From: a virus
DNA: 22,639 bases
Reading direction: 5' to 3' (one strand)
IMG/VR virus record: IMGVR_UViG_3300009526_000067
Location: 1 to 22,639 of that record
Shown here piece after piece: positions 17,253 to 18,137 of this stretch. The translations under genes and the position numbers were made by a program. The notes beneath the pieces are model-generated. The model had not been told where the DNA came from and searched no databases. It worked only from the letters and a program-made list of their open reading frames with translations. Every line of letters starts with the position of its first letter. Within the stretch, counting starts at the first letter, position 1.

Positions 17253-17283
17253 GGGGTAGACTTAACGAAGTCACCCCTTTTTT
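17253..17283 (+). terminator. Intrinsic terminator at the end of the late region
   Basis: GGGGT, a bulged A and GACTT pair with AAGTC and ACCCC around the loop AACG, followed by T6. It is a strong rho-independent terminator 60 bases after the stop of the last late gene and 95 bases before the early promoter. It separates late from early transcription. Confidence 0.87.
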
Positions 17284-17320
17284 AATGCCCTATAAATAAA
17301 ATATAAAAAAACTTTGCATT

Positions 17321-17378: not shown

Positions 17379-17409
17379 TTTGTATAATGGGATATTATAA
17401 CTATCTTTG
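17379..17409 (+). promoter_or_regulatory. Early promoter of Bacteroidetes type
   Basis: TTTG at 17379-17382, a 19-base spacer and TATCTTTG at 17402-17409 match the Bacteroidetes primary-sigma consensus (TTTG-N19-TAnnTTTG) at every fixed base. The first early ATG (17438) follows 28 bases after the -7 box, giving a short A/T-rich leader. It lies just after the late terminator and would drive the early operon. Confidence 0.82.
17383..17399 (+). promoter_or_regulatory. Candidate operator: perfect palindrome inside the promoter spacer
   Basis: TATAAT, GGGAT, ATTATA form a perfect 6-base inverted repeat with a 5-base centre, filling almost the whole spacer between the -33 and -7 boxes. A dimeric repressor bound here would block RNA polymerase. 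One of the helix-turn-helix proteins encoded downstream (19014-19424 or 19424-19654) is a possible ligand; this is inference. Confidence 0.55.
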
Positions 17410-17437: not shown

Positions 17438-17593
17438 ATGAAATTCTCAAAACAACAACTTCAAGTAATAGCATACTCAGTTTCACTTCTTGAAAGTGAT
17501 GGAGATAATGAGTTATCATCAAGTACAAATGTAGATATGCAGCAGATACTTGGAAAATTACAAGAGGTCGGAATTTGGGGAAACGTAGAATAA
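17438..17593 (+). CDS. Small early protein, 51 residues
   Basis: It is the first gene after the early promoter: ATG 17438 to TAA 17593, MKFSKQQLQVIAYSVSLLESDGD..., ending in LGKLQEVGIWGNVE. It is mixed helical with a polar serine-rich middle; there is no membrane segment, cysteine or recognisable motif. First-transcribed small phage genes often encode host-takeover or anti-defence proteins, but nothing here identifies such a role. The leader is A/T-rich without a Shine-Dalgarno sequence, as in other genes of this phage. The well-formed promoter and start support it as a real gene. Confidence 0.6.
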   Translation: MKFSKQQLQVIAYSVSLLESDGDNELSSSTNVDMQQILGKLQEVGIWGNVE

Positions 17594-17610
17594 TTAAAAT
17601 CAAATCAAAT

Positions 17611-17651
17611 ATCTGAATGGTTCTAGAGGGGTTCGATTCCCCTCGCAGATA
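17611..17651 (+). other. tRNA 3'-half-like element, possible attP core or structured RNA
   Basis: AGGGG (17627-17631), the loop TTCGATT and CCCCT (17639-17643) form a canonical T arm, followed by a seven-base acceptor-like strand CGCAGAT and the discriminator-like A17651. Upstream, ATCTG (17611-17615) can pair with CAGAT (17646-17650). No D arm, anticodon stem 5' strand or complete acceptor strand precedes it, so it is not an intact tRNA. Phages that integrate at tRNA or tmRNA genes carry exactly such 3' parts, making an attP core plausible. The alternative is a structured leader in the early transcript. Confidence 0.55.
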
Positions 17652-17657
17652 CTAACC

Positions 17658-17670
17658 GCAGGACACCTGC
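17658..17670 (+). promoter_or_regulatory. Hairpin GCAGG-ACA-CCTGC before the gene at 17685
   Basis: This is a perfect 5-base stem with a 3-base loop ending 14 bases before the start codon at 17685. There is no T run after it, so it is not a terminator. It belongs to a set of hairpins placed at nearly the same distance before starts (see also 12435-12456, 18578-18597 and 19658-19676). Confidence 0.45.
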
Positions 17671-17684
17671 ACAAAATCCATAAA

Positions 17685-18137
17685 ATGGAAAATTTCACAA
17701 AGACCATAGCTGAGGTCAAATCAGCACTAGACCAAGCGACTCAAATGCTTGAAGAGAATCAAACGCTCAGAGAAGAGATTCAGAGCCTTAAAGCAAGTCC
17801 AAACACTCACAGCAATGAGCGTGACCTGAAAGTCCTTGAGATGGCTTACCAAGCAGGAAGGGATGCCGTAATCGGACAGCTAAGGAATCAAAGCTATGAA
17901 ACGACTCACGAGATTGACGAGTCAACGTATTCAGATGGCTTTGAGATTCAATTCACTCAGGAGGTAGATATTGAGATAGACCTTGAAACTGTAATCGATA
18001 GCATCTACGATGAGCTGGAGATGGACAGCGATGACTTTAAGAAGCTACAGGAGGAAATTGAATTCACATTAGCCGCTCAACGGGCACTTGATGTCCTGAA
18101 TTTAGAGCAGATTACAACTAACAAAATTGAAGCGTAA
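17685..18137 (+). CDS. Early protein of unknown function with N-terminal coiled coil
   Basis: The protein has 150 residues and is acidic. Residues 1-36 form a likely coiled coil (AEVKSALDQATQMLEENQTLREEIQSL). A second helix (LKVLEMAYQAGRDAVIGQLRNQ) follows, then a strand-rich part (FEIQFTQEVDIEIDLETVIDSIYDELEMD) and a C-terminal helix. No catalytic or DNA-binding motif is evident. It ends in a TAATG overlap with the next gene. I do not recognise the family. Confidence 0.65.
   Translation: MENFTKTIAEVKSALDQATQMLEENQTLREEIQSLKASPNTHSNERDLKVLEMAYQAGRDAVIGQLRNQSYETTHEIDESTYSDGFEIQFTQEVDIEIDLETVIDSIYDELEMDSDDFKKLQEEIEFTLAAQRALDVLNLEQITTNKIEA

Follow-up and report, generated by a model that had tools for sequence, protein, structure and literature searches.

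A minimal tRNA-like element between phage genes: a candidate processing site for polycistronic messages

In an intergenic space of a phage genome lies a sequence that resembles the 3′ half of a tRNA, and the question it raises is what such a piece could be doing between two genes. The DNA analyzed, hereafter the window, comprises the 22,639 nucleotides of the IMG/VR record IMGVR_UViG_3300009526_000067 (positions 1 to 22,639) and is a fragment of a phage genome, its source phage carrying at least one copy of the sequence. A sequence-only reading had offered two interpretations: a piece of a tRNA gene without its 5′ half, as temperate phages carry in an attP core, or a tRNA-like mini-structure that would act as an early leader RNA.

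Anatomy of the element and its neighborhood

The tRNA-like element (TLE) reads T-ATCTG-AATGGTTCTA-GAGGGG-TTCGATT-CCCCTC-G-CAGAT-A-C (17610-17652), and its parts are listed in Table 1. The acceptor-like stem has 5 bp, or 6 if the possible pair T17610-A17651 is counted, and there is neither a D stem nor an anticodon arm. The tRNA D loop follows the order A14-R15-Y-G18-G19, and the 10-nt linker contains A-A-T-G-G in this same order. Direct reading of the sequence confirms the previously described T arm of 6 bp, which includes G17626-C17644, with its TTCGATT loop and the discriminator A, and also the intergenic position, between the end of an ORF (17593) and an ATG (17685). The 40-base mini-structure made by ATCTG/CAGAT and the T arm holds both in the sequence and in the covariation of the family described below. 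As an early leader RNA, the interpretation stands for the mini-structure and fails for the leader proper: since a short ORF precedes the element on the same strand, it is intercistronic. Nor is the TLE a tRNA piece that has lost its 5′ half, given that the linker itself is conserved (A-R-Y-G-G), making this a complete small element.

Table 1. Features of the window and of other TLE-bearing loci (locations with an L prefix refer to the latter)
Feature	Location	Strand	Remarks
Mini tRNA-like element	17610..17652	+	Acceptor-like stem, D-loop-like stretch, T arm, discriminator A, C74-like C
Acceptor-like stem, 5′ strand ATCTG	17611..17615	+	Complement of 17646-17650; family covariation
D-loop-like linker AATGGTTCTA, 10 nt	17616..17625	+	G17619-G17620 at the place of tRNA G18-G19 (partners of the T loop)
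T arm	17626..17644	+	6-bp stem GAGGGG/CCCCTC (17626-17631 with 17639-17644), loop TTCGATT 17632-17638
Unpaired G between T stem and acceptor 3′ strand	17645	+	Read from the sequence
Acceptor-like stem, 3′ strand CAGAT	17646..17650	+	Complement of 17611-17615; family covariation
A-C, discriminator-like purine and C74-like C	17651..17652	+	AC or GC follows 86/101 copies with a 5-bp acceptor
Downstream hairpin GCAGG-ACA-CCTGC, 13 bases	17658..17670	+	Folds in the window and in L001
51-aa ORF upstream of the TLE	17438..17593	+	No family match; unrelated gene in its place in L001
150-aa ORF downstream of the TLE	17685..18137	+	No family match; first of the conserved early genes
Pistol ribozyme	L010:4240-4305	-	Rfam
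Pistol ribozyme	L048:11373-11445	+	Rfam
Pistol ribozyme	L072:981-1046	+	Rfam
Hammerhead II ribozyme	L011:4548-4609	-	Rfam
Hammerhead I ribozyme	L058:1376-1425	+	Rfam
GOLLD RNA	L036:152-569	-	TLE behind its 3′ end
GOLLD RNA	L126:350-757	+	TLE behind its 3′ end

The order in the window, with stop codon, TLE, hairpin, and ATG, is the anatomy of the actinophage copies, and the distances of around 16 nt past the stop and 32 nt ahead of the start agree with their placement. Neither ARAGORN nor a scan against Rfam 15 with the threshold relaxed to E ≤ 1 reported anything in the window. The terminator scan of the window did not list the TLE either, and no T run lies behind it, which sets it apart from intrinsic terminators as defined by a GC hairpin plus a T run. 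For the lone window copy, the energy model favors an alternative pairing of the acceptor region (GGTT/AACC) while ignoring contact between the D loop and the T loop, and minimum-energy folds of individual copies are an unreliable guide to these elements.

Regarding the surroundings, a terminator-like sequence, GGGGTAGACTTAACGAAGTCACCCCTTTTTT, lies immediately ahead of the early region (17253-17285) and was probably missed by the terminator scan because of its bulge. A candidate promoter, TTTG-N19-TATCTTTG (17379..17409, + strand), precedes the 51-aa ORF; we take it to be of the Bacteroidota type from a comparison by eye with the consensus, a promoter type outside the coverage of the sigma-70 scan of the window. 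No integrase was seen among the window proteins scanned, which represent part of the ORFs of this genome fragment.

An exact 26-base pattern retrieved three IMG/VR contigs, L001, L002, and L003, of which L002 is nearly the same phage as that of the window. The downstream protein is 75% identical in L001 and L003, and its relatives are found in these three close contigs only, so the rest of the family had to be reached through sequence patterns. The TLE is identical in all three contigs (43 of 43 bases in both L001 and L003). When the window and L001 are aligned at the ATG, the TLE agrees in 43/43 bases and the whole 76-base leader in 73/76, while the downstream gene agrees in 350/453 (77%; 65% at third codon positions) and the 100 bases upstream in 33/100, near the random level. 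Such identity next to gene DNA at 77% and unrelated upstream DNA argues that the TLE of the window is not a product of chance. The hairpin behind the element likewise keeps its stem in L001, with one loop base changed.

A covarying RNA family in phages

More than 200 distinct copies were found in phages and prophages of Bacteroidota, Bacillota, and Actinomycetota. The first blastn search led to the crAss-like phage cr131_1, which has an unannotated ATCGG-AATGGTTTTA-GAGAGG-TTCGATT-CCTCTC-CCGAT-A whose loops are those of the window and whose stems are compensated. The loop pattern then led to L010, L011, and L012, with several copies per contig and very different stems, again compensated; the acceptor strands are ATCTG/CAGAT in the window, ATCGG/CCGAT in cr131_1, TTCCGG/CCGGAA in L011, and GCCCCG/CGGGGC in L010. 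A covariance model built from 16 copies, with the window left out, finds positions 17611-17652 of the window at 39.6 bits, with an E-value of 1.1e-7 that is calculated within its own record and, as with all E-values of this model, is rough.

A wider pattern, fixing only the loop residues and two inner T-stem pairs, matched at least 119 viral stretches and at least 61 stretches of bacterial genomes. Both stems are present in 167 of 200 of its matches, and most of the matched contigs without clean stems look like imperfect copies. At E ≤ 0.1, the matches per whole record of eight actinophages number 10 in Fowlmouth, 11 in Indlulamithi, 11 in Cuke, 8 in Predator, 10 in Izzy, 14 in Papyrus, 7 in Konstantine, and 14 in VanLee, a few of them weak or partial, and within each record they occupy a single strand. 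Matches in the crAss-like phage cr4_1 and the lactococcal phage sk1 were weak and were left out of the counts. In bacterial genomes, the matches sampled lie mostly amid genes of phage families, anti-repressors and late transcriptional regulators among them; matches were found in at least 9 of 118 genomes in a sample of the genus Streptococcus, at least 13 of 149 in the family of Epilithonimonas, and at least 1 to 2 of around 200 in phylum-wide samples. None of 249 genomes of Pseudomonadota matched with 25 candidates scored per genome, from which we do not claim that the phylum lacks the family. The TLE is absent from Rfam 15, ARAGORN misses its copies, and we found no description of it in the open literature searched, the coverage of which was incomplete. 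This is apparently an unannotated and widespread family of phage RNAs.

Some variants deserve mention in their own right. In Streptococcus phage Javan523 (L204:3014-3056), the TLE is nearly invariant and common to many prophages of S. pyogenes, S. dysgalactiae, and S. canis, and it lies around 130 nt ahead of a DNA modification methylase gene. By eye, one gap of Predator (L205:8530-8672) holds a continuous 12-bp minihelix, GCCGCTGACGGG-TTCGACT-CCCGTCAGCGGC, instead of the two-stem element. Two gaps of Fowlmouth (L202:5858-5979 and L202:6933-7134) hold longer versions, in which an extra arm separates the D-loop-like stretch from the T arm; these are possibly intermediate between the mini form and a tRNA. 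Two TLE-bearing loci also carry a DUF805b RNA, a cis-regulatory family of Rfam (L157:5149-5185, - strand, and L129:3167-3199, + strand).

This spread bears on the proposal of an attP core, that is, the captured 3′ end of a host tRNA gene used for site-specific integration. The sequence does resemble tRNA positions 49-73, and a real case of a tRNA with an integrase exists in the Bacteroides phage Versailles. However, 395 Bacteroidota genomes contain no exact or one-mismatch match, and comparison with tRNA 3′ ends gave a single genome of the 395 matching the 3′ half at two mismatches or fewer, with the acceptor changed. Moreover, the TLE has its own 5′ acceptor strand, and up to 14 copies with compensated stems occur per phage. 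We therefore regard integration as a very improbable explanation for the window copy, and for the family as a whole we consider it refuted. The sequence-only reading was to be refuted if no tRNA 3′ end matched and, in addition, the fold lacked conservation in related phages; the second half of this condition does not hold, as the fold is conserved.

Evidence at the RNA level comes from the stems. In the training alignment, 96.9% of the cells are paired, compared with 55.4% after shuffling; since this alignment was partly chosen for pairing, the fair test is the set of 162 distinct matches chosen on their loops alone. There, T-stem pairs 3-6 are formed in 90-98% of the copies against 34-47% in shuffled ones, acceptor pairs 2-6 are formed in 63-90% against 34-47% with shuffled partners, and all six pair types are in use. 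The lower values in the acceptor reflect an imperfect register, caused by 1-nt bulges and 7-bp T stems. A bulge such as that at G17645 is present in 31 of 211 copies, including many of those from Bacteroidota (TCCCA...C-TGGGA). Both stems thus covary strongly, which is the mark of selection at the level of RNA. This refutes the view of the elements as decayed tRNA pseudogenes, to which their tRNA-like sequence and the extra arms of the Fowlmouth copies might lend some color; selection is visible in the covariation as well as in the fixed placement, and decay is an extremely improbable origin.

The loops are constrained as well. A scan of 77.7 kb from eight actinophage loci for a T loop and two stems, with any sequence in the intervening loop, gave 51 matches on the gene strand and none on the opposite strand or in shuffled sequences. 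Loop positions 4-5 are occupied by GG in 49 of the 51, position 1 by A in 88%, and position 3 by a pyrimidine in 92%. The loop separating the acceptor and T strands measures 9-12 nt across copies, and the stacked acceptor and T helix is 11 or 12 bp long in 162 of 211 copies, compared with 7 + 5 in tRNA. On the 3′ side of the acceptor, the purine and the first C are conserved (86 of the 101 copies with five-bp acceptors) and the second C is not. The family thereby shows three features of tRNA: a T arm with a TTCRANY loop, an acceptor stem, and the GG of the D loop. One might suppose that the TLE is simply a structural stabilizer or exonuclease block, capping the 3′ end of the upstream message or the 5′ end of the downstream one with no involvement of specific tRNA enzymes, as stable hairpins at message ends generally protect RNA. 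The strict D-loop and T-loop sequences far exceed what a stable hairpin needs, however, and we consider such a role improbable.

Placement between genes and ribozymes in equivalent gaps

In the eight annotated actinophages, distances to the neighboring genes were taken for 61 copies: the TLE starts a median of 9 nt past the upstream stop codon and ends a median of 42 nt before the next start. All but seven of them (54/61) overlap annotated genes by 10 nt or less, compared with 9-21% under random placement. In the other loci, analyzed with crude ORF calls as is the case outside GenBank records, 73 of the 131 copies fall between genes, compared with 12% by chance, at a median of 11 nt past the stop. 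Some short annotated ORFs of Fowlmouth (for instance gp47, L202:4840-5115), Cuke, and others overlap the TLE, and their start codons may have been placed too far upstream. Behind nearly every actinophage copy, 0-3 nt past A-C-(G), there is a hairpin, mostly of 5-9 bp, which is more stable than in dinucleotide shuffles (mean z of -3.2; p ≤ 0.05 in 46 of 60). Among Bacteroidota and Bacillota copies, such a hairpin is found in some and missing in many, and most Bacteroidota copies lack a strong one.

The median distance of 9 nt from the stop codon is near the edge of the ribosome, which invites the idea that an uncut TLE acts on translation, its elbow affecting termination, recycling, or re-initiation. 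This would leave unexplained the 3′ R-C, the hairpin right behind the element, and the ribozymes in equivalent gaps described next, and we regard it as quite unlikely.

Rfam scans over about 600 kb surrounding TLE copies revealed five self-cleaving ribozymes in TLE-bearing phage loci, all on the strand of the TLE (Table 1). In L010, L011, L058, and L072, the ribozyme motif starts beside a stop codon, at a position ranging from 6 nt ahead of the stop codon's end to 1 nt past it, and the following start codon lies 11-36 nt downstream. In L048, the Pistol motif overlaps the last 20 nt of the upstream ORF, and the distance to the next start is 42 nt. Two successive gaps of one operon in L072 hold first a TLE and then a Pistol ribozyme, and in L010 the leaders after the Pistol ribozyme and after the element TLEb have AGGGAGTGGACA in common, in the Shine-Dalgarno region. 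Given that ribozymes cut RNA and occupy the same kind of gap, a shared job is suggested, namely cutting between cistrons; this support for a cutting role, counted in TLE-bearing phages only, is strong but not formal. In addition, in both contigs seen to carry a GOLLD RNA (L036 and L126), the acceptor of a TLE starts around 5 bases past the 3′ end of the GOLLD match, at a point where this large noncoding RNA would have to be ended precisely, and this side case supports a processing role.

Cutting would also be compatible with a role in trans, where the excised mini-tRNA of around 42 nt is itself the stable product, perhaps CCA-tailed, and acts, for instance, to decoy host enzymes or defense effectors that recognize the top halves of tRNAs. 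RNase P, the CCA enzyme, and EF-Tu recognize features within the top half of a tRNA, which would suit such a product, as would the presence of up to 14 copies per genome. Nevertheless, the fixed place between stop and start and the ribozymes at equivalent sites point to a role in cis, the acceptor sequences vary freely, and a decoy would not need a copy in each gap. We thus consider a trans-acting product unlikely.

A proposed role and its known counterparts

Structure, covariation, placement, copy number, the downstream hairpin, and the ribozymes in equivalent gaps are the observations from which we infer cleavage of the TLE, the enzymes responsible, and an effect on mRNA stability. Quite probably, the TLE is a cis-acting processing site that punctuates polycistronic phage mRNA and is cut by host RNase P and, presumably, also by RNase Z. 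Once transcribed between two cistrons, it would fold as the acceptor and D-loop/T-loop elbow half of a tRNA, the part that RNase P measures. The host enzyme would then cut on the 5′ side, at the first acceptor base and immediately past the upstream stop codon. Past the discriminator base, a second cut would probably be made by an enzyme of the RNase Z type, which processes tRNA 3′ ends, so that the message would be split into separate cistrons. A hairpin at the 5′ end of a message is a known stabilizing end; such a hairpin would lie a few nt from the 5′ end of the downstream piece in actinophages, plausibly also in the window, and should shield that piece from decay.

What is known of RNase P substrates is consistent with this proposal. 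The enzyme binds the stacked acceptor and T stems together with the T loop and pairs with the 3′ RCC (PMC11221534), and it finds the canonical site even in hairpins reduced to an acceptor stem, a T stem, and a T loop, which it cuts there (PMC11143913). The family has the corresponding stacked acceptor and T helix of around 12 bp with a T loop.

Some points speak against the processing role. RNase P prefers CCA at the 3′ end, and the TLE conserves only the first C of it. After a cut by RNase P, the 3′ end of the upstream message would be short and lack protection. The strong downstream hairpin is missing from most Bacteroidota copies, and the energy model predicts the alternative acceptor pairing for the window copy taken alone. 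Even so, on balance it seems somewhat more likely than not that a dedicated class of decoding-less minimal tRNAs serves many tailed phages, those of Gram-positive and Bacteroidota hosts, as intercistronic full stops, at which host RNase P and RNase Z would split early mRNA into protected single-gene messages and for which self-cleaving ribozymes could substitute.

If true, this would be an operon-splitting, post-transcriptional system of DNA viruses that is undescribed in the literature searched. The family itself apparently adds a large unannotated set of RNAs to well-studied phages, such as Predator, with 8 model matches, and Papyrus, with 14. If cleavage occurs, it would explain how each gene in densely packed phage operons can have a separate message stability and level, the TLEs would be natural minimal substrates of RNase P, and the scattered self-cleaving ribozymes of phages would be offered a role.

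The TLE falls outside several known classes that it resembles. It is not a transfer RNA, as it has no anticodon arm or cloverleaf, and ARAGORN and the Rfam tRNA model miss both the window and the other elements. The nearest Rfam models are mascRNA-menRNA and tmRNA, both weak and below threshold: the former (RF01684) scores 26.9 bits against a gathering cut-off of 42.5, and the latter (RF00023) scores 21 bits for one Predator element against a cut-off of 47, with no tag region. The resemblance to the tRNA-like domain of tmRNA lies in an acceptor stem, a D loop without a D stem, and a T arm, while the mRNA-like part and the tag are absent. mascRNA and menRNA are small tRNA-like RNAs that RNase P and RNase Z excise from a long transcript, and the TLE is comparable to them if it is cleaved as proposed; they differ in being longer and in coming from single loci of nuclear long RNAs in animals.

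Viral RNAs offer further parallels. The C4 antisense RNA of phages P1 and P7 is an RNase P substrate (PMC11143913); it is thus a phage RNA cut by this enzyme, but it acts in trans as an antisense RNA and is not repeated between cistrons, and the Rfam scans of TLE loci did not find it. Pistol and hammerhead ribozymes share with the TLE the equivalent intercistronic gaps of the same phages, in contrast to which they are self-cleaving and have an unrelated fold. The tRNA-like structures of plant viruses are found at the 3′ ends of RNA genomes and have a pseudoknotted acceptor; they too are tRNA mimicry by viral RNA, differing from the TLE in this location and in the pseudoknot.

The closest counterparts are of two kinds. 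In the tRNA punctuation of mitochondrial transcripts, messages are freed by the excision of tRNA-shaped units that separate the cistrons, much as in our proposal, except that those units are functional tRNAs, whereas the TLE has no anticodon arm and would serve, if the model holds, solely as a cut site. The minihelix model substrates of RNase P have the same acceptor stem, T stem, and T loop, around 12 bp when stacked, and the same 3′ R-C, but they are laboratory constructs, while the TLE is natural, lies in phage mRNA, and has a conserved D-loop-like stretch. Processing signals that resemble tRNA are of a known kind, and the TLE would work as tRNA punctuation and the RNase P model substrates do.
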